Source: Planomonospora sp. ID67723
GTDB taxonomy: Bacteria > Actinomycetota > Actinomycetes > Streptosporangiales > Streptosporangiaceae
Direction of reading: 5' to 3'
NCBI RefSeq assembly: GCF_015711605.1
Contig: NZ_JABTEZ010000002.1
Span: 434,001-498,000, forward strand
Length of the DNA stretch: 64,000 bases
The notes under the pieces: generated by a model
What the model was told of the DNA's origin: nothing
Databases searched by the model: none
What the model saw: only the letters and a program-made list of their open reading frames with translations
Program-made: the position numbers and the translations under genes
Part shown: in pieces, positions 6,864 through 20,262 of the stretch
Position numbering within the stretch: the first letter of the stretch is position 1
Layout: every line of letters begins with the position of its first letter

Positions 6864-6937
6864 GGGGCGGTAGCTCAGCCGGTTAGAGCAGGGGACTCAT
6901 AATCCCTGGGTCGCGGGTTCGAGTCCCGCCCGCCCTA
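6864..6937 (+). tRNA. tRNA with CAT anticodon, probably tRNA-Ile2 (lysidine type)
   Basis: A 74-nt cloverleaf: acceptor 6864-6870 pairs with 6930-6936 (one G-U), D arm GCTC...GAGC, anticodon stem GGGGA/TCCCT with loop CTCATAA (CAT at 6898-6900), T stem GCGGG/CCCGC with TTCGAGT loop, discriminator A6937. CCA is not encoded. The body (GAGCAGG-GACTCATAATC-C-TGGTCGC) is closer to bacterial tRNA-Ile(CAT) such as ileX than to elongator or initiator Met; elongator Met is the alternative. Its 3' half is the attachment core repeated at 15291 and 19217. Confidence 0.93.
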
Positions 6938-7068
6938 CCCTCCGCGATCAGGACAAGAGCGCCTCCGGCTTGGGCTTCTGCGGTTTGGGCGCTCTTCTGC
7001 TGTCCGGCTGTCAGCGGCCGTCGTCGGCCTCTGGCGGGTGATCGTGCCGAATACGTGCCGAAGTTTCG
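6896..7068 (+). repeat. Direct repeat copy 1: tRNA 3' half (att core) plus 132-bp arm
   Basis: The 41-bp core (6896-6936) spans anticodon loop to acceptor end. The following arm to 7068 is nearly identical to 15332-15464, ending in AATACGTGCCGAAGTTTCG in both. It marks the left attachment end of the accessory island. Confidence 0.85.
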
Positions 7069-7261: not shown

Positions 7262-7723
7262 ATGGCCATGCCGACCGTTCCGTTCTCCGACCTGTCGAAG
7301 CACTCCAAGCAGGTGGCCGAGACCATCGACCGGTTCCACCGCGTACACGTCAAGCGCCGTGACGGGGAGGACCTGTTCATCTCCACGGCCCGGCACGACC
7401 GCCAGCGCGAGGAGACAGCGGATGTGGCGGCCCGTATGATAGCCGCGCTATTGGCCAGTGACGAGGGCACGCGCGCCGTCCTGCACGCCCTGCCCGTGGT
7501 CTTCCCCTGGGTGCGGCACCTGTCCGCGGACGAGCGGCGTGAGTTCGTCCAGGAACTCGTCGACGCCACGCGGGACGCGGTCGACCTGGACGTCCACGCC
7601 ACCCTGCACCGAGTCATCGTCGAGTGGCGCGCCACCGCCCGCATCCTGGCCGACCCCGCGTTGACCGCGCAGCTCACCCGTCCGCTGCCGGAGGAGGACC
7701 ACGGTGAGGTGTCCGCGCCGTGA
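7262..7723 (+). CDS. Prevent-host-death-like antitoxin
   Basis: 153 residues from the ATG at 7262 (MAMPTVPFSDLSKHSKQVAE); an in-frame ATG two codons on is equally possible. The N-terminal VPFSDLSKHSKQVAETIDR followed by HVKRRDGEDLFI resembles Phd/YefM-type DNA-binding antitoxins. It would neutralise the toxin encoded next and repress the operon through the palindrome just upstream. Its stop overlaps the toxin GTG by 4 bases (GTGA), giving translational coupling. The long C-terminal half (about residues 75-150) is where toxin binding would be expected. The gene is the first in the island after the tRNA att copy. Confidence 0.75.
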   Translation: MAMPTVPFSDLSKHSKQVAETIDRFHRVHVKRRDGEDLFISTARHDRQREETADVAARMIAALLASDEGTRAVLHALPVVFPWVRHLSADERREFVQELVDATRDAVDLDVHATLHRVIVEWRATARILADPALTAQLTRPLPEEDHGEVSAP

Positions 7724-8076
7724 GCCCCAAACGCGGCGATGCCGTGGCACCGCCGTCGATCGGTGACGAGTGGCATCTGCGGTTCGCCACCAGTGAGGCA
7801 GCCAAGGGCTGGATCGATCTGTGCGCTGAGGTGCCGGGGAACACCCGGCGGTGTTTCGAGGCGCTGCGCGCGGATCCGCTGTCGCAGAAGGACCCGGACC
7901 GGCAGCACCGGCTGCGCGGCCGCCTGGCGACCGGGACGCTGGGCGGCCGTGAATACCCTCAGTGGGAGTACGAGGTCACCGCGGGCGGCCGGGTGCGTTA
8001 CCTGGTCGACGAGCCCCGGCGGACCGTCCATCTCGTCTACGCCTCGCCCCGGCATCCCAAGGACACCGACACCTGA
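7720..8076 (+). CDS. RelE/ParE-like toxin
   Basis: 118 residues from GTG 7720. The pattern of basic and aromatic residues (RRCFEALRADPL, RLRGRLATGTLGGREYPQWEYEV, GRVRYLVDEPRRTVHLVYASPRHPK) matches RelE-superfamily toxins: a central beta sheet ending in a V-x-L-V-Y-A strand and a basic C-terminus. Such toxins cut mRNA at the ribosome or poison gyrase. The paired antitoxin gene precedes it with a 4-base overlap. Family-level call from sequence pattern and context; which subgroup is uncertain. Confidence 0.7.
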   Translation: MSPKRGDAVAPPSIGDEWHLRFATSEAAKGWIDLCAEVPGNTRRCFEALRADPLSQKDPDRQHRLRGRLATGTLGGREYPQWEYEVTAGGRVRYLVDEPRRTVHLVYASPRHPKDTDT

Positions 8077-8109: not shown

Positions 8110-8574
8110 TCAGTCTGCTTCGGGATGGGTGGCGCGTTCCTCCAGGGGCGGAGCGGGCGGCGTATGGAAGGCCAATCCTGAGATCCGTCCCGACTGGATC
8201 ACCGGACCGAACTGCACGCCTCCGCTGACGACGTTGCGCACGGTGTTCGTTCGCGGGGCGCGCAGCTCCGAGTCCAAGGCGCCGAGCAGGCGCAGCAGTT
8301 CGGCGGCCGTAACGGGGTCGGACAGCAGCAGACGACGCAGCCGGAGGCGCCACTGAGCCTCCACGTCAGCCGCCATGCCGTCGTTGCCTGCTTCATACGC
8401 GGCCACGACTTCGCTGCGGGAGATGTCCAGCTCGCGGACCATGTCTTCCGCTGCATGCTTGCTGGCGAAGAACCGCGTAAGTCTTTCCTTCACCTGGGTC
8501 CAGGAATCCGTGACCATCAGCCCTATCAGCGTCGCTGCTCCCGAACCCGCCAGTGCGGCAAGCTCTGCTTCCAC
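8110..8574 (-). CDS. Small protein with C-terminal RHIM-like motif, last gene of the TIR cluster
   Basis: 154 residues from GTG 8574, chosen because GGAGG lies six bases upstream (the frame stays open to 8691). Residues 1-25 (VEAELAALAGSGAATLIGLM) form a hydrophobic helix. The middle is helical and charged. Near the C-terminus comes NTVRNVVSGGVQFGPVIQSG followed by RISGLAFH. This G-x-V-x-G-P-V-I-Q-x-G-x-I-x-G pattern resembles RHIM-like amyloid signalling motifs (BASS3 type) of actinobacterial immune proteins, including a V-Q-x-G tetrad. Function is inferred: an adaptor or executor recruited through the motif. It lies 55 bp after the SPFH-like gene on the same strand. Confidence 0.55.
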   Translation of the reverse strand: MEAELAALAGSGAATLIGLMVTDSWTQVKERLTRFFASKHAAEDMVRELDISRSEVVAAYEAGNDGMAADVEAQWRLRLRRLLLSDPVTAAELLRLLGALDSELRAPRTNTVRNVVSGGVQFGPVIQSGRISGLAFHTPPAPPLEERATHPEAD

Positions 8575-8629
8575 GATCCACCTCCGAGAAACGTCGTCAG
8601 GGCCGACATGGTGAATGCTGTGATGCGGC

Positions 8630-9709
8630 TCATCCGAGATCATCGATCGGTGGTCCCTCGCTGGGCCTGCCGGAGGCAGGGGCCTCGTCATCGGGCATGA
8701 AGTCGTCAGGCGCGTCGAATCTGCGTATCAGGTCGTCGGCGACGTCCTGCTTTCCGTACTTGGTGAGGCACTCGGCCACCTGCCTGCTGAACAGGGCGCG
8801 TTGCGGGTCGCCGTCCGGAAAGTCAGCGGACTGCAAGAAGGCCGCGAAGAGGTCGACGGCGGAAGAGTCACGCCTCAAGCCGGATGTGTCTGGCTCGCCG
8901 TCGTCCGCCGGCCGGGGGGAGGACGGCCACTGGGTCAAATGGCGAAAATGCTCGGGAACCTCCTGGTTGTTCGCGGCGGAGGAGACCTGGGCGAGGATGC
9001 CTAGGTCCTGCACCACCTTCTCCACCTGGTCGTCGTTCCTGCTGAGCCACCAGACCACGGCGCTACCGGGGTCCTTCAGCACGTCCTTCCCCAGGTACTC
9101 GCGCCTGCTCTGTTCGTATGTCCTCTCGTGCTCCCAGACGGCCTTCTGCTTGCGTATCTCCGCGAGTTTGTCCAACCGCTGCCGGTCGTGATCGGAGAGG
9201 GTGAGCGCGACCGACTCGGCCATCGCCCGCACACGTTCCGCGGCGTCCGGTTGCATCGTGCCCAGCGCACCGTTCAGTTCGTGCTGGACGAGCGAGGCTC
9301 TTCCGGGAGGCCGGTTCCTCGTGATGGCCATGGCGCGCTCCAGGATTGCGTCGACCGCCAGGCCTCCGAGGTTGGCACCCGCCTTGCCCGTCACTCCGCC
9401 GAGGGGAGACCAGCGCACCGTTGCCGAGAAGAGGAAGTCGTAATCCTCCTCCTGGCTCGGCAGCGCGACGTCGACGACCTGATGCTCCCGGTTCTCAACC
9501 GGTGGCGGGAGGAAGTACGTCGGCTCCACCGGAGAGGTGGCATGCGTTCCGCGGCCGAGGTATCTCACGATGAGAAGCGCGGCGCCGGCCACCGCGGCGA
9601 GCGCCGCCCACACCCAGCGCGGAAACGGGGCGAACACGATGAGGCCGGTGAGGAGCAGTCCCGCGAAGACGGTGAAATAAATGGTGATCGTTCTACGACC
9701 GGAGCCCAT
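8630..9709 (-). CDS. Membrane-anchored SPFH/band-7-like protein
   Basis: 359 residues from ATG 9709, preceded by AAGGA (the frame opens slightly earlier at a GTG without a site). Two N-terminal membrane helices (about 8-30 and 31-48) are followed by a cytoplasmic domain with a beta-rich segment (DYDFLFSATVRWSPLGG) and a long helix with HDRQRLDKLAEIRKQKAVWE and REYLGKDVLKDPGSAVVWWL. That strand/coiled-helix pattern resembles actinobacterial SPFH/prohibitin-like proteins. The C-terminal third is acidic and probably disordered. It sits between the P-loop protein and the RHIM-like protein and may anchor the complex at the membrane. Domain call is tentative. Confidence 0.5.
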   Translation of the reverse strand: MGSGRRTITIYFTVFAGLLLTGLIVFAPFPRWVWAALAAVAGAALLIVRYLGRGTHATSPVEPTYFLPPPVENREHQVVDVALPSQEEDYDFLFSATVRWSPLGGVTGKAGANLGGLAVDAILERAMAITRNRPPGRASLVQHELNGALGTMQPDAAERVRAMAESVALTLSDHDRQRLDKLAEIRKQKAVWEHERTYEQSRREYLGKDVLKDPGSAVVWWLSRNDDQVEKVVQDLGILAQVSSAANNQEVPEHFRHLTQWPSSPRPADDGEPDTSGLRRDSSAVDLFAAFLQSADFPDGDPQRALFSRQVAECLTKYGKQDVADDLIRRFDAPDDFMPDDEAPASGRPSEGPPIDDLG

Positions 9710-9745
9710 GGCGTTGTCCTTCTGATGTGTTGTCACGATGACGGC

Positions 9746-11716
9746 TCACAGGCCTCGGAGTCCCAGCACGGTGTCGATCTTCTGCCGGACGAGGCCGGTG
9801 AAGAGAGCACTGCGCTCCTGTCCGTCCGCTGAAGAAGAGGCCAGATCCCGGGCTGCGACGTACAGGGGGGCCAGGAGATCTGTACGCTGCCCGCCTCCCC
9901 TGATGAGGACGTCGAGAAGGGGCCCGCGATGTGCTTCGTCCTCGAGGGCTGCTCGGAACCAGTGCTGCGCCTGGGGCCGCCAGACCTCGTACGAGCACAG
10001 GAGGAAGACGAGGTGCCATCCGGCGGTCAGCTGCTCCTGCACGCCGGGGTCGGACAGCGGGGAGTGCGCGTGCGGCCCAGGAGCTGTGAGCGGTATCGGA
10101 TCGGCGAGTTCCAGGAACAGGTCGGCGTCGAACCGCCGCCACCTCTCGTTTTCCGACTGGAGCCGATGGACCAGTCGTTTCAGCATCCAGATGCGCAACT
10201 GCGTGTCGGAGCCCACTATCTGAGCGAGTGCATCCCGGGCGTGCGCGGTCCCGGTCTCCCTGCGGGCCAGGTGGTGGAGCCGGACCAGAGCCTGGTCCGG
10301 ATGGTGCGCCGCGATCATCTTCCAGCACGTCACGGTGAGCACTTGGGCGAGTTCTCGGGAGACGGAGCTCCTCGCCGCATCAAGGATCCTCTGGCGGAAG
10401 AACCGGCCGTGCGCCTCGTCTCCGAGTCCGTGGCGTAGCGCTTGGACGGAGGCTTCCAACCGGAAACGGGTTACGGGGGCTCCGGTGCACTGCCACACGA
10501 GATCCAGCAGCATGTTCGGGTGTCCGTCACGCAGACACTGCTGGGCGAACCGTTTGACCAGTTCGTCGCGGTCGCTCTGTTCCAGGCCGGGCAAGTCCAC
10601 GATTCCGGTGACCCACTTCTGGATGGGTTTTCGCAACTCCGGCCAGTGGGTCCAGAAGTGGGACCGGACCGCGGAGTCGTATCCGAACTTGCCGAACCTG
10701 ACCCGGCCGGAGGCATCGGTCGATGAATCGATCTCCTTGAGGCGTACGGTGAGGTCCGTGTGCTCCAGCAGAGGGAGGTCGGCCTGCGGGTGCCCCACCT
10801 CCCGTAGGAGCGCAGCGGTGGCACGGTGAATGGCCTCGGCGCGGGCTCCGTGCATCATGGCGGTGGCCAGTAGCAACGCTCGTTGTGGCCCTTCACGCAG
10901 GATGGTGAGCTTTTCCGTGACACGTGTGCTCTGCCGGTTGTCCAGTACGGCCAGGGCGTCCTCGCACCAGGCGGCGAACCCGCTCTCCGACCTTTCTCGC
11001 GCCTCGACGACGAGCTCGGCGAGGTCCGCGATCTTCCGCATCGAGGGCGCCCCCGCCAGGAAATCCGAGAGGGGCTCGGGAGAGGAGTCGGTCTCGGCGA
11101 CCGGGATGTCCGCCGCACGCAGGTAGCGCTGGAACACCGTCTGCTCGGGCGGGCGGGTGATCTCGATTCGGAAGGCGCTGAGATCCGGTTGAAGCCGCCC
11201 GGCCGTCCCGGCCGGGAGCACCACCACCAGCCGGGCGGCGTGATCGTGCGCGGCCACCCGGAGATCGTGAAGTTCGCCCTGGACCTTGGACCAGGTCTGT
11301 TCGTCGGCGGACGCCGACAGGTCCACCAGGATCAGAGCGTCGTCTCCGACCTGGTCGAGGTCGAGACAGCGCTGCCCGCCGTCCTCGTCCGGCAGGATTT
11401 CGTGGAACGTCTCGCGTCCGGAGTACAGCTCGTTCAGGAGCATCCATGCCGCGCTCCTCCGCCCCGCGCCCGGTGCTCCGTCCAGGAAGACGGTGCCGTT
11501 GCATTCCAGGACCCGGCGGGCGCGGGCGAGACCCGGCGGGGGGACGAAACGCTTCCGGAGCCAGGCCAGCTGGTCGCCGGCGATACGCCGGGGGTCTTTG
11601 CCGGCGGCCTGCGCCAGCTGCGTGAACGATATGTGCTGAGTCACGTACTGGTCGCCGTCGCCCGTGTGCGTCGCTCCGTAGTTGCTCTCGACAAAGGTGC
11701 CGGACCGCCCGTTCAA
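9746..11716 (-). CDS. Large P-loop-like protein with degenerate Walker A, partner of the TIR protein
   Basis: 656 residues from a TTG at 11716 whose first bases overlap the TIR gene stop (TTGA); GGAGAGG precedes it. The N-terminal 30 residues are Gly/Asn/Thr-rich (ESNYGATHTGDGDQYV), like the tail of the TIR protein. Next come LAWLRKRFVPPPG and VFLDGAPGAGRRSAAWMLL, a P-loop in which Arg replaces the Walker A lysine, and a Walker-B-like DDALILVDLSAS. The remaining roughly 450 residues are helical with no recognised repeat. It resembles a STAND-like scaffold that may bind but not hydrolyse nucleotide. Role in immunity is inferred from the TIR neighbour. Confidence 0.55.
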   Translation of the reverse strand: MNGRSGTFVESNYGATHTGDGDQYVTQHISFTQLAQAAGKDPRRIAGDQLAWLRKRFVPPPGLARARRVLECNGTVFLDGAPGAGRRSAAWMLLNELYSGRETFHEILPDEDGGQRCLDLDQVGDDALILVDLSASADEQTWSKVQGELHDLRVAAHDHAARLVVVLPAGTAGRLQPDLSAFRIEITRPPEQTVFQRYLRAADIPVAETDSSPEPLSDFLAGAPSMRKIADLAELVVEARERSESGFAAWCEDALAVLDNRQSTRVTEKLTILREGPQRALLLATAMMHGARAEAIHRATAALLREVGHPQADLPLLEHTDLTVRLKEIDSSTDASGRVRFGKFGYDSAVRSHFWTHWPELRKPIQKWVTGIVDLPGLEQSDRDELVKRFAQQCLRDGHPNMLLDLVWQCTGAPVTRFRLEASVQALRHGLGDEAHGRFFRQRILDAARSSVSRELAQVLTVTCWKMIAAHHPDQALVRLHHLARRETGTAHARDALAQIVGSDTQLRIWMLKRLVHRLQSENERWRRFDADLFLELADPIPLTAPGPHAHSPLSDPGVQEQLTAGWHLVFLLCSYEVWRPQAQHWFRAALEDEAHRGPLLDVLIRGGGQRTDLLAPLYVAARDLASSSADGQERSALFTGLVRQKIDTVLGLRGL

Positions 11717-12456
11717 CGCTTGCCCTCTCCGTCCTCGCGGGAGTTCCCGAACCGGTGGCCGATGCCGCCGTGGTTGTCTCCGGCGACATACGTCGCCCCG
11801 TCGCCGGAGAAGTGCTGGGAGTCGCGGTAGACGTTGCCACTGCCCAGATGGGCGATCCCGTGGTTGTTCTTGATGCCGGTGCCGACGTCCCCGGCGGTGA
11901 TGTCGCGGCCCTGGAGGACCGGGCCGTGCACGTTGTCCGCCGCGTTGGAGACGGAACCGGAATCGGGGGCCGTCGCTCGGGAAGCAGGACGGACGACCGG
12001 CCCGAGCGACGGGATCCACTCGGCGAGCCTGGTGAACAGGCGTCTGAGGCCGGCCTGGAGGTCCTCCACGTCCAGGCGCTCCGATTGGACCTCGGCGAGC
12101 CACTTCAGTTCCAACGGAAGATCTGCCGGATCCAACCGTCTGGCGCCCGGCCCTTCCAGGACGGGTACGACCGGTATGCCGAAGGTGAGCGCCTCGAGAA
12201 GCTCCCGGCGGACCCAGTCGTCTTTGTCACGCAGCCTGGGGGAGCGGGTCCAGGCCGGGCCGATGACGGCGAGCACGACGGTGGCGCGCCGTACGTTGCC
12301 GAGCAGTTCCTCGGGGAAGCGCTGACCGGGCCTGATGGACCTGGTGGCGCGGAAGACGTGGTCCTCTCCTCCGAGGATTCCGGAGAGCTCCCTGTCGATG
12401 AGGAGGGCGGTCTTCTCCCCGTCGCCGGTGCGGTAGTTGATGAACACGGTGGCCAT
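11713..12456 (-). CDS. TIR-domain protein with Gly/Asn-rich signalling tail
   Basis: 247 residues from ATG 12456 (GAGAGGA upstream). Residues 1-135 are a TIR domain: VFINYRTGDGEKTA (box 1), FPEELLGNVRRATVVLAVIGP, and DDWVRRELLEAL, whose glutamate near 85 corresponds to the catalytic Glu of NAD-cleaving TIR domains. The tail (about 165-247) has SNAADNVHGPVLQGRDITAG, a RHIM-like G-P-V-x-Q-x-x-x-I pattern, then Gly/Asn/His-rich segments ending YVAGDNHGGIGHRFG. Bacterial TIR proteins commonly deplete NAD+ as anti-phage effectors. It overlaps the P-loop gene by 4 bases and follows the XRE gene by 11 bp. Confidence 0.72.
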   Translation of the reverse strand: MATVFINYRTGDGEKTALLIDRELSGILGGEDHVFRATRSIRPGQRFPEELLGNVRRATVVLAVIGPAWTRSPRLRDKDDWVRRELLEALTFGIPVVPVLEGPGARRLDPADLPLELKWLAEVQSERLDVEDLQAGLRRLFTRLAEWIPSLGPVVRPASRATAPDSGSVSNAADNVHGPVLQGRDITAGDVGTGIKNNHGIAHLGSGNVYRDSQHFSGDGATYVAGDNHGGIGHRFGNSREDGEGKR

Positions 12457-13666
12457 GAGGGTCCTCTCTACGGGGTGATGATCTGGATGGTCGTACCGAG
12501 GTCGGGAGCGAGTTCGCGTACCGACCGGTTGCGCGGGTGACGGGCCAGGACACGAGCGAGGTTGCGCAGGTCCGGGGCGATCGTGGCCGAACCCACCGTG
12601 ATGACGTCGCCGAGCAGCCTGCCGGTGAGGGCGCACGCGTGGTCGACTTCCCCGGCCGCCGCGTGGGCGAGCGCGCAGCGCACCCCGTAACGGACCCGGG
12701 TACGCAGCGCCTGGGGTGACACCCGCTTCAACTGCGCTTCCATGATTTCGGCGGCCTCGGCCGGCCGCCCCAGGTCGTACAGGCACCAACCGGTGATCAT
12801 CCCGGCCGGGTCGGTCAAGTTGGTGGTGCCGATGACGGGTACGTCGGGGTCGGGGATATGGCCGGTGAGGAGCGTCCGTGCCCGGTCCAGAGCGCGCATG
12901 CAGGCCTCGTAGTCGCCCGCGAGCGCATGGCCCTGCGCCTCCCGCTGCGCGGCCAGGCCGCGGATCCGCGGTGGAACCCTGCCGCTCTGCGCCTGCCTGG
13001 CCAACTCGACGGTCTGCACCGCATCCTCGCGGTAGAGCGTGACCAGCGCTCGGCGGACCAGTCCGTACGCGGCCAGGTCATGGTCGCCGCCGGCGGCCGC
13101 CAGGTCGACGGCACGTTGCGTCCACCACAGCGCCGCCTGCTCGTTTCCCGTCTCCTGCACCAGCCAGCCGACGTACTCGGCGTACCGGGCACCGAGTCGC
13201 AGCAGCCCTTGACGGGTCCGGGAACCGGCATGGACGGACAACTCCCGGAGCGTATGGGTCTGTGCGATGAGCGCGGGGAGCAGAAGGCCGGGACCGACCG
13301 TCTGGCCGATCCGCCGGTAATGGTCGAAAAGCGAGCGGGACGTTCCCAGAAGCATCGGGTCCTCGGTTCCAGCTTGGTTCGCCGGTCCGCCGATGCTCAT
13401 CCCCGCGATCGAGACCGCGCCAGCGGCCATCGCCTGCCTCCGGCTCATGGGCTGGAACCGGTTCTGCCCGTCTACGGACAACTGCATCAACCACACCTCG
13501 TCGTCACCGTTCTCTTGGGCGGGTTCTCTGTCAGGAAGTGGCCCGCAGACCAGAGAGGCGAGTCGGCCTCCGGCATCGAGTACGTTGTCGCAGAGACGAG
13601 CCAGTTCGCGGCTCGGTGCTTTGATGCCTCGTTCGACCTTGCTGATCTGGCCTTTGCTGTAATGAA

Positions 13667-14593
13667 TGCATTTCATCCTCGGGCGCCCTGAGCAACACGG
13701 TGGTTCTGTAGGACGGCGATGGCCTTGACGAGGTGGCCGGCTTTGCTGGGGCTGCAGCGCAGCTTCCGGAGGATTCTCCATGACTTGAGCTGCGCGTTCG
13801 CGCGCTCGCCGGGTCCGCGGAGCTTGGCGTGTGATCGGTTGGCCTGCTTCTGGGACTGCGGCTTGTTGCGGCCTTTGTACGGGGTGATGACGACGGTGGC
13901 CTCGGCCCCCTGGTAGCCCTTATCGGCCAAGGTGAGGATCCCTGCCTTCTCCAGTTCGCGCAGGATGCCCCATACTCTGGCCGCGGTCAGGTCGTGCATG
14001 CTGCCCGGCATCGCGCCGGAGGTCCACAGGATCGTCCCGTCCGGGCCCGCGATCACCTGCACGTTCATGCCGTGGATTCGATGCTTGCCGGAGAAGTAGG
14101 GACGGTCGGCCCGCACGCGGTCGGTGTGGATGAGCGTGCCGTCCAAGATGAGGTGGGTCAGCCCGTCCTGCTTGGCTTTGCGTAAGGCCTGGGTGAGCTT
14201 GGGCGAGCGTGCTGACAGCAGCATGACGGTCTCCTGCACGTACCGCCAGGCCGTCGTCGCCGACACGCCGAATCCCGCGCTGATCTCGGCGAACGTCTCA
14301 TCTTTGCGCAGGTGGATCAGCACCATCAGGGCCTGCTGGCCGGGGTTGAGTCGCCGCCAGATCGATCCGATGGCCTTGCGGTGGCGGCGGATGAGCCCGG
14401 CGACGTAGTTCAGCGTTGAACGCGACAAATCGACGGCAGCACGGTAGAACAGCACCCGAAGCTCCTGGTTGTAGCGGGCGTTGGTTGTGGTGATCAACCC
14501 GTCTACCAGGAGCTTCTCTACTTCCGAGGACGAACCGTCAACTCGCGATCATGCCGTGACCAGCGGCCCGGCCCTCAGGGATGAAATGGGTTC
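13667..14593 (-). mobile_element. IS5-family insertion sequence, complete
   Basis: About 927 bp carrying one transposase gene. Near-terminal inverted repeats are CATTTCATCC at 13669 and GGATGAAATG at 14579. The direct repeat AATGAA flanks it (13661-13666 and 14594-14599) and restores the XRE reading frame when one copy is removed. A 5' fragment of a close relative lies at 18452. Confidence 0.85.
13673..14497 (-). CDS. IS5-family DDE transposase
   Basis: 274 residues from a TTG at 14497, apparently intact. The N-terminal helix-turn-helix (FAEISAGFGVSATTAWRYV) is followed by a DDE_4-type catalytic domain: LDGTLIHTDR with the first Asp, GSMHDLTAARVW, LADKGYQGAEA with the second Asp, and GPGERANAQLKSWRIL with the Glu. 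It moves the element inserted into the XRE regulator gene. Its TGA stop lies inside the inverted repeat. Confidence 0.9.
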   Translation of the reverse strand: MITTTNARYNQELRVLFYRAAVDLSRSTLNYVAGLIRRHRKAIGSIWRRLNPGQQALMVLIHLRKDETFAEISAGFGVSATTAWRYVQETVMLLSARSPKLTQALRKAKQDGLTHLILDGTLIHTDRVRADRPYFSGKHRIHGMNVQVIAGPDGTILWTSGAMPGSMHDLTAARVWGILRELEKAGILTLADKGYQGAEATVVITPYKGRNKPQSQKQANRSHAKLRGPGERANAQLKSWRILRKLRCSPSKAGHLVKAIAVLQNHRVAQGARG

Positions 14594-14687
14594 AATGAAC
14601 CAGCTTGGATAAATCGGTAAGGGTGAGATCGGCGGCGAGGCGCCGTCTGCGAAGTTCCCTGCCGAAATGGATCGGCTGCTCGACCAC

Positions 14688-15290: not shown

Positions 15291-15464
15291 CTCGTAATCC
15301 CTGGGTCGCGGGTTCGAGTCCCGCCCGTCCTACCCTCCGCGATCAGGACAAGAGCGCCTCTGACCTGGACTTCTGCGGTTTGAAGCGCTCCTCTGCTGTC
15401 CGGCTGTCAACGGCCGTCGTCGGCCTCTGGCGGGTGATCGTGCCGAATACGTGCCGAAGTTTCG
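15291..15464 (+). repeat. Direct repeat copy 2: tRNA 3' half plus arm
   Basis: Starts at CTCGTAATCC and repeats the 41-bp tRNA core with two changes, then the 132-bp arm found after the real tRNA. The 5' half of the tRNA is missing, so it is not a gene but a former attachment site between two integrated segments. Confidence 0.85.
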
Positions 15465-19107: not shown

Positions 19108-19216
19108 TAGCACCGCAAGATCCGGACCATGGGCGGACCGGAGATCGACTCACGCTCTCGGAGGCATGCCGGACGTCCAGGTCAACCGCCTGATCCGCGT
19201 CTCAAGATCCTGACCT

Positions 19217-19257
19217 CTCATAATCCCTGGGTCGCGGGTTCGAGTCCCGCCCGCCCT
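19217..19257 (+). repeat. Direct repeat copy 3: tRNA 3' half (att core)
   Basis: The 41-bp core (CTCATAATCCCTGGGTCGCG...) matches the tRNA 3' half except at the last bases. The arm that follows is only distantly similar (GACAAGAGTGCCTCTGGC) to those of copies 1 and 2. An integrase relic lies 0.8 kb to the right with its 3' side facing this site. Confidence 0.82.
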
Positions 19258-19489
19258 CTCCCTTGTGGCCTCGACAAGAGTGCCTCTGGCCCGTGTCCTC
19301 GCACCCTGGGGCGCTTTCATCGCGTCCGGCTGTCGCTGACCCGTTGCGACTTTCTCTTCCCAACGCCTTCCCGCGCCCGTGGAGATCATCTCGGTGGTGC
19401 GGTGGCGACCGGCGGACTACCGAGCTCCACCTCGGGGTGGAGCGCCACCGCCCCGTCGCCCGCAGATCTGATCGTCGGACGTCCACCTG

Positions 19490-20030
19490 GTCGGTAGAGC
19501 TGGTCGCCGGGGCATAGGCAGTAGAGCCTGGGTAGACCGCTCGCCAGTGACCGGCGGCGGTAACGGTGAACTTCTTGGCGAAACCACCTGTCCGCATGGT
19601 GGTCGCGCTTCCAACGGACCGGTAAGCGGATGTGCCCTGCATGCGGAACTGGATGACGACTCGATGGCCGCCGAGCGGTGTGTAAGCCCAACGGGTGGAG
19701 GGGCGTCTGTACAGCGTGCCCTTCATGGTGATGGACATGCCCTTCCCGACCGGTTCGGGGCCGGCACTGACCTGTTTGAGGATTGTGGGGGCCTTGACCG
19801 GAAGGCAGAGGGTGCGCTTGCCAGACCGGCCGTTGCGGTCGGCGCAAGGAACTCGACGGTATGCGTTCCACTGCGGGCCGCAGTCCACTGTCCGCGGTAG
19901 AGGCCGTTCCTGGCATCCCCGGAAACCCGTGCCAGGCGGACGTAGGTCGCTGAACCTTGCCCGCCGACCCGGGTATACAGCGGAGAAGCGGCTCCGCCCG
20001 GGCTCCTCCAACCGCTCCGTCTCAGCGCTC
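19490..20030 (-). pseudogene. Fragment of a secreted Ig-like repeat protein, frameshifted
   Basis: Two reading frames together read like the C-terminus of actinomycete cell-surface proteins: TYVRLARVSGDARNGLYRGQ then, after a frame change near 19830, KAPTILKQVSAGPEPVGKGM, TMKGTLYRR, HRVVIQFRMQGTSAYRSVGS and HWRAVYPGSTAYAPATSS. There is no signal peptide or N-terminus; the piece is joined to an integrase relic. Not functional. Confidence 0.65.
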
Positions 20031-20037
20031 CAGGCCA

Positions 20038-20262
20038 GGGGAGGGACGGTGAAGTTGTGGACGCGGAGACGGACGGCTTCCTCGGGGCGCAGCCCGGTGT
20101 AGTACATGACCGCGAAAAACGCTTTGAGCCGTCTGTCGCTCGGCTTGTGCGGCCTCCACCGCGGCCGGCGGCGCTCGTGTCTGAGCGTGGCTGACGACGC
20201 TCCGGCGGTCCACCTCGGAGACCGTTCTCGGTCGCTTCCACTTCAGATTCTCGATCGGATTC
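20038..20262 (-). pseudogene. Tyrosine recombinase (integrase) fragment
   Basis: Minus-strand remains read NPIENLKWKRPRTVSEVDRR and, after an indel, RRLKAFFAVMYYTGLRPEEAVRLRVHNF. The Y-Y-T-G-L-R-P-E-E-A motif holds the first catalytic arginine of actinomycete tyrosine integrases. The C-terminal half with the His-x-x-Arg and Tyr is gone. It is the relic of the enzyme expected for the tRNA-targeted element. Confidence 0.75.

Follow-up and report, generated by a model that had tools for sequence, protein, structure and literature searches.

A conserved actinomycete operon encoding TIR and pseudo-STAND proteins with matching terminal motifs, together with an SPFH-like membrane protein

Bacterial pairs of a NOD-like receptor (NLR) and an effector that carry BASS amyloid signalling motifs were reportedly described by Dyrka et al. 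in 2020. As described elsewhere (PMC7889193, PMC8086366, PMC12261475, PMC9815663, PMC7885112), such pairs are encoded by adjacent or overlapping genes, occur in multicellular actinomycetes, and match a motif at the effector C-terminus to one at the N-terminus of the STAND protein; TIR is a less frequent partner of these motifs, and the combination of TIR, STAND and matched motif has been proposed as an immune arrangement (PMC7889193). A second precedent is the MoxR-vWA systems, which count inactive STANDs, TIR, cyclic nucleotide monophosphate (cNMP) cyclases and Band-7 domains among their parts (2020, PMC7159879). Here we describe an operon in a 64,000-nucleotide stretch (hereafter the window; contig NZ_JABTEZ010000002.1, positions 434,001 to 498,000) of the 8.34 Mb genome of Planomonospora sp. 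ID67723, in which genes for a regulator, a TIR protein, a P-loop protein and an SPFH-like protein, and then a short last gene, follow one another on the minus strand from 14687 to 8110. The closest relatives of this system are found in actinomycetes, many soil members of which share the gene set, and we read it as a probably immune module, a new variation on the bacterial NLR-effector pair with matched motifs.

The likeness to the BASS pairs is one of arrangement: the TIR gene shares exactly 4 bases with the P-loop gene in 65 of 78 loci, and a motif that we call m2 occurs in 89 of 99 enzyme tails and in 82 of 99 P-loop heads. The operon differs from them in that its STAND part is nSTAND3-like, with close copies that lack the Walker A Lys, its effector is a TIR or cyclase-like enzyme rather than Bell, it includes an SPFH-like protein and a regulator besides, and two motif types sit on one tail. 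An earlier, sequence-only reading of the window had likened its GPVxQ tails to BASS3; this membership was not confirmed, the one published BASS3 peptide that we compared by eye having V-Q-V-G against V-[LI]-Q-[GS] here. The iSTAND MoxR-vWA ternary system likewise uses an inactive STAND, a TIR or cNMP cyclase, and Band-7 as interchangeable parts (PMC7159879), whereas here the parts are separate, overlapping genes joined by short tails, and flank counts show no MoxR-vWA couple regularly beside them. Thoeris resembles the operon in placing a TIR enzyme (ThsB) within a bacterial multi-gene system, but the ThsB profile reached only E 0.018, the best PADLOC match; none of the seven window proteins scanned matched ThsA, ThcB4 of type III Thoeris scored 17.3 bits where 220 are required, and none of the NCBIfam models for defence approached its cut-off. 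The profile search on which a defence assignment was to be checked was thus negative, and Thoeris and other catalogued defence systems were rejected on these profiles. No paper on the operon was found by title or start of abstract, a search that could miss a subscription paper, nor was an SPFH-type protein in NLR pairs described in those portions of the literature that we examined.

Conservation and components of the operon

To define the operon beyond the window we used an 80-locus set found through the P-loop gene alone by alignment search, 80 loci being kept of 95 confirmed. A first scan with a single P-loop protein had given no match; a search with the P-loop protein that scored only four candidates per genome gave hits, many of them distant, in 78 of the order's 297 genomes. 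Across the 80 loci the XRE gene is present in 77, TIR in 78, the SPFH-like gene in 72 and the last gene in 29, and all four core genes occur together in 69, with TIR and XRE accompanying each other in 76. The order XRE(NsdA-type)-TIR-P-loop-SPFH-like is therefore a real, conserved and co-inherited operon, found in Streptomyces, Actinomadura, Streptosporangiaceae, Saccharopolyspora, Actinopolyspora and others; of the five-gene synteny that had been proposed, the four core genes stand, while the fifth is optional. In a first set of 40 loci that reaches further out, 24 have XRE on the same strand and 12 on the opposite one, and 4 lack it. The distance patterns of the four proteins correlate with r of 0.74-0.89 over 63 loci, values that common descent alone could yield. 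Searched for by alignment with five candidates scored per genome, the SPFH-like protein occurs in at least 2 of 396 genomes of the phylum, that of the window included. Some copies appear disrupted, namely L095 (TIR absent, XRE shortened), L124 (TIR shortened), and L141 and L144 (P-loop gene in two frames), and L128 is cut by the end of its contig.

The TIR protein (247 residues; 11713..12456, minus strand) starts 11 bases after the XRE stop codon at 12468, and its gene shares the four bases TTGA with the P-loop gene, so that the orientation, order and junctions first read from the window hold. Its TIR domain (TIR_2, E 1.4e-7 in Pfam) has a WVRRE motif whose Glu aligns with the catalytic Glu of SARM1, and the WxxxE Glu is kept in all TIR proteins of the 80-locus set plus the window (79/79) and of the first set plus the window (38/38). 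The reading of this protein as a TIR with its catalytic Glu was accordingly upheld, and it is a probable NAD-cutting enzyme. The likeness to the SARM1-type NADases is confined to the TIR domain and the region around this Glu; this is a stand-alone bacterial TIR with a motif tail, and no other SARM1 domain was recognised in it.

The P-loop protein (656 residues; 9746..11716, minus strand, with a TTG start at 11716) has an N-terminal m2, a degenerate Walker A (GAPGAGRRS) and a conserved C-terminal region. The nSTAND3 profile recognises 63 of 68 members with E <= 0.01, the best value being 4.6e-8; the window protein itself scores 24.8 bits, under the curated cut-off of 27.2, and the functional Walker A (GK[ST]) expected of an nSTAND3 member was not found. 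In the 80-locus set plus the window the Walker A Lys occurs in 0 of 77 readable copies, 75 of which have Arg (4 of 81 were unreadable), in agreement with the degenerate P-loop that had been claimed. In the wider first set plus the window the position holds Arg in 29, Leu in 3 and Lys in 1, with 8 of 41 unreadable; the sole Lys belongs to the distant locus L069 and is followed by Arg. To judge from these residues, the nSTAND3-like protein has probably lost ordinary ATP hydrolysis, and we refer to it as a pseudo-STAND.

The SPFH-like membrane protein (359 residues; 8630..9709, minus strand, with its start at 9709 or 9736) has two hydrophobic N-terminal helices and a C-terminal helical module. 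In a predicted model residues 70-225 adopt the SPFH fold beside the membrane anchor, as in the SPFH/Band-7 proteins stomatin, prohibitin and HflK/C, and the model thus agrees with the proposed SPFH-like identity; the protein differs from these in its extra C-terminal module, and Pfam Band_7 matched none of 60 members. The eight loci without an SPFH-like gene (L128, L137, L138, L139, L143, L146, L149 and L151) carry in its place, just after the P-loop gene and overlapping it by 4 bases, a gene for a short membrane protein of 104-124 residues that has two hydrophobic segments, or a single one in L138 and L151, lacks an SPFH domain and, by eye, shares the C-terminal module. A membrane protein gene thus follows the P-loop gene in 80 of 80 loci (72 SPFH-like, 8 short). 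Four more distant loci (L064, L067, L070, L071) have a second SPFH-like gene beyond an oppositely oriented XRE gene. The optional last gene (8110..8574, minus strand) has a likely GTG start at 8574, the reading frame being open from 8691, and encodes an adaptor-like protein with a C-terminal GPVIQSGRI.

Shared motifs, enzyme swap and fusions

Two motif types, m1 (GxxVIQ[SAG][RGH]) and m2 ([HN]xGxG), were compared between enzyme tails and P-loop heads over 99 loci. In the window, the TIR tail carries GPVLQGRDI (m1) and HLGSGN and GDGATYV (m2-type), the last protein has the m1 given above, and the P-loop N-terminus has GDGDQYV. The m1 motif occurs in 51 of 99 enzyme tails (shuffled mean 1.3, maximum 5) and in none of the 99 P-loop heads; the corresponding m2 counts, given above, compare with shuffled means of 29 for tails (maximum 42) and 4 for heads (maximum 10), in keeping with the shared Gly/Asn/His-rich segments first noticed in the window. 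To the eye, m2 is similar to the G-S-G-D-Q-x-N part of the sigma motif of fungi, as printed in the paper that gives the BASS3 peptide.

Tails match their own heads with a mean score of 53.8 against 39.4 for other heads, a difference reached by 0 of 10,000 permutations, and 74 of the 99 pairs beat shuffled tails by 3 standard deviations. The own head ranks first for 14 of 99 tails and within the top five for 30, with a median rank of 19. With relatedness controlled, the own head scores above that of the nearest relative in 58 loci and below it in 37, with 4 ties (p 0.02), the advantage holding against relatives 45-60% identical (p 0.005) and not being significant at 60-80% or >80%. The m1 in TIR is associated with presence of the last gene (19/27 vs 19/50; Fisher p 0.009, relatedness not controlled). 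As m2 lies on both tails and heads, while m1 is absent from heads and goes with the last gene, m2 looks like the link between TIR and P-loop protein and m1 like that between TIR and adaptor.

At four loci (L058, L060, L066, L148) a different enzyme with an m2-type tail occupies the place of TIR. Its own head ranks first of 99 in L058, L066 and L148 and second in L060; the L060 tail is EVRGPVNIGGTQHN and its P-loop head GVRGPVNVGGTQVN, and in L066 GAQGPVNIGGRQVN is found on both. The enzyme has no match in Pfam, NCBIfam, PADLOC or the PDB at the limits used, apart from a weak EAD1 match of the L058 protein (E 0.049, below the cut-off). We read it as class III cyclase-like from an invariant D18 and TGDG and from the neighbouring gene, which at all four loci encodes a CRP-type regulator, with a cNMP-binding domain in the two tested (E 1.1e-16 in L060 and 3.3e-19 in L148); the L148 gene set comprises CRP, cyclase-like, P-loop and SPFH genes. 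In L052 and L053, TIR, tail and P-loop protein are fused in one open reading frame (ORF), of 821 and 832 residues respectively.

Genomic setting and the interrupted regulator

The regulator had been taken as one intact XRE gene from 14687, which it is not: an IS5-family insertion element (13663..14594, minus strand; transposase ORF 13673-14497) splits it. The N-terminal piece (14592..14687, minus strand) comprises 31 codons that end in LVH, with a stop at the element's edge, and matches the start of the intact relative L032, in which YSKGQ comes next; the remainder (12468..13661, minus strand) resumes from YSKGQ, so that the element sits exactly at the LVH/YSKGQ junction. This remainder encodes an HTH-TPR regulator of the NsdA family (NF053720, E 1.1e-51, 176.7 bits vs a cut-off of 75), whose cut-off is exceeded at six other places in the host genome. 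The element has 25-nucleotide terminal inverted repeats (76% complementary) and a transposase recognised by Pfam and NCBIfam (the NCBIfam score being below the cut-off). It spread recently in this genome, since four further copies, on contigs C1 and C4, are 99-100% identical; the flanks differ from copy to copy. Because XRE heads the operon in most close relatives, the insertion has probably cut the operon off from the promoter that belongs to it, and with its regulator split the operon may be silent or misregulated in this genome.

The operon lies on an island in a tRNA-Met gene (6864..6939, plus strand; integration site), as had been proposed. A 35-base part of the tRNA gene is found again at 15293 (one mismatch) and at 19219 (0 expected in 100 shuffles), and 174 bases from inside the gene onward are repeated at 15291 with 94% identity. 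From this repeat, the segment from 6.9 to 15.3 kb looks like a single inserted unit that contains, besides the system, a toxin-antitoxin-like pair (7262-8076, plus strand) that adjoins the operon and whose first gene is a weak DUF6247 match; L032 has an 86% relative of this gene at 9534-10001, on the other side of its operon. The direct repeats of the 3' part of tRNA-Met at 6896-7068, 15291-15464 and 19217-19257, the first two with ~130 further bases, mark two tandem inserted units. The ORF at 19202-20107 begins with a stretch, YYTGLRPEEAVRLR, that we take to be a tyrosine-recombinase-like motif, perhaps from an integrase remnant. Such an island is not general to the system, as a tRNA gene lies within only 4 of the 60 relatives' loci scanned out of the 80.

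Sixteen Streptomyces loci (L085, L087, L108, L112, L114, L116, L119-L123, L127, L129, L131, L135, L136) share one chromosomal slot, held by different lineages of the system; its flanks are presumably priA/fmt and metK/coaBC/rpoZ/gmk, which would place it between priA and metK. A quick tree needs 6 slot changes, at least 4 of them forced by well-supported branches, which implies either repeated entry into the slot or frequent loss of the system. Searches for mobile carriage returned no phage records, no confirmed viral contigs and two plasmid records. Flanking genes were scanned as 108 proteins from 27 of the 80 loci: a script that skipped 14 near-copies and loci without four flanking genes chose 37, and ten were excluded by hand, nine being slot loci. 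Each Pfam family matches at most 6 of these 108 proteins; among the matches listed (25 of 62 families) and with no control for comparison, a few are of defence type, with Mokosh MkoA in 2. Once the slot genes and the short membrane protein are set aside, each flank family occurs in at most 5 of the 80 loci. In the closest relatives L032, L033 and L072 (10227-13286), a large helicase-type gene with, by our reading, a phospholipase-D-like end directly follows the operon.

Possible mechanism and rival explanations

Our preferred reading, which we hold to be about as likely right as wrong, is that the operon encodes a membrane-tethered, motif-coupled TIR/pseudo-STAND module, most likely for responses to infection or stress. 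In such a module the NsdA-type regulator would control transcription of the operon, and the nSTAND3-like protein would act as sensor and scaffold, a trigger acting on its C-terminal part. The m2 head of the P-loop protein would then pair with the m2 of the TIR tail, gathering TIR domains and turning on NAD+ cleavage, while the SPFH-like protein would anchor or cage the assembly at the membrane; the m1 in the tail could also dock TIR to the optional m1-bearing adaptor. A more tentative extension, which we think somewhat likelier to be wrong than right, is a plug-in immune platform with a constant core of pseudo-STAND and membrane SPFH cage, to which different nucleotide enzymes (TIR NADase or cyclase-like enzyme), each with a matching regulator, would be brought by a code of two tail motifs, m2 addressing the scaffold and m1 optional adaptors, with membrane-tethered signalling through motif templating that needs no ATP hydrolysis by the STAND protein. 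An immune role seems the likeliest, because TIR, STAND and matched motif together have been proposed elsewhere as an immune arrangement (PMC7889193).

The joint swap of regulator and enzyme and the resident Streptomyces slot make signalling outside immunity a serious rival, though on the whole an unlikely one: the TIR or cyclase-like enzyme would make a small-molecule signal read by the NsdA- or CRP-type regulator, steering development or stress responses rather than defence. TIR goes with XRE in 76 of 80 loci and the cyclase-like enzyme with CRP in L058, L060, L066 and L148, the slot is common to 16 Streptomyces, and NsdA-family proteins, met at six further places in the host genome, are resident Streptomyces regulators. 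Such a regulatory module alone leaves the pseudo-STAND scaffold, the shared tails and the TIR-P-loop fusions unexplained, and the patchy presence (78/297 genomes, distant matches included and four candidates scored per genome), the tRNA island and the broken copies better fit a conflict system. A different executor is also conceivable. Thoeris- and Pycsar-type signalling provide models for an enzyme-made signal acting on a membrane protein, and a TIR or cyclase-like product might here open or reorganise the SPFH-like protein in place of NAD+ loss. The membrane protein encoded after the P-loop gene in all 80 loci and the interchangeable enzymes would suit this; however, Pfam revealed no domain for nucleotide binding in the SPFH-like protein, and SPFH proteins are usually scaffolds rather than pores, so that we consider it quite improbable.

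The nature of the coupling itself can be doubted. The G/N/H-rich tails could be ordinary heterotypic docking segments, or low-complexity linkers duplicated at the junction, with no templated (amyloid) assembly; their simple composition, their contiguity at the TIR/P-loop junction, the median own-head rank of only 19 and the non-significant match among close relatives all point that way. Yet motif conservation far exceeds that of shuffles and a similar tail is carried by an unrelated, cyclase-like enzyme, and we find this explanation doubtful, if still quite possible.

Should the motif-coupled TIR/pseudo-STAND module prove correct, a module widespread among actinomycetes would be missing from the defence libraries that we searched. 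It would bring together three elements met repeatedly in the innate immunity of animals, plants and fungi, namely a TIR enzyme, a scaffold of the STAND type and short motifs that match, and would add a membrane SPFH-type protein to the NLR-pair layout. The natural swap between TIR and cyclase-like enzymes, together with the fusions, offers clean tests of whether matched tails alone set the enzyme choice of a STAND scaffold.

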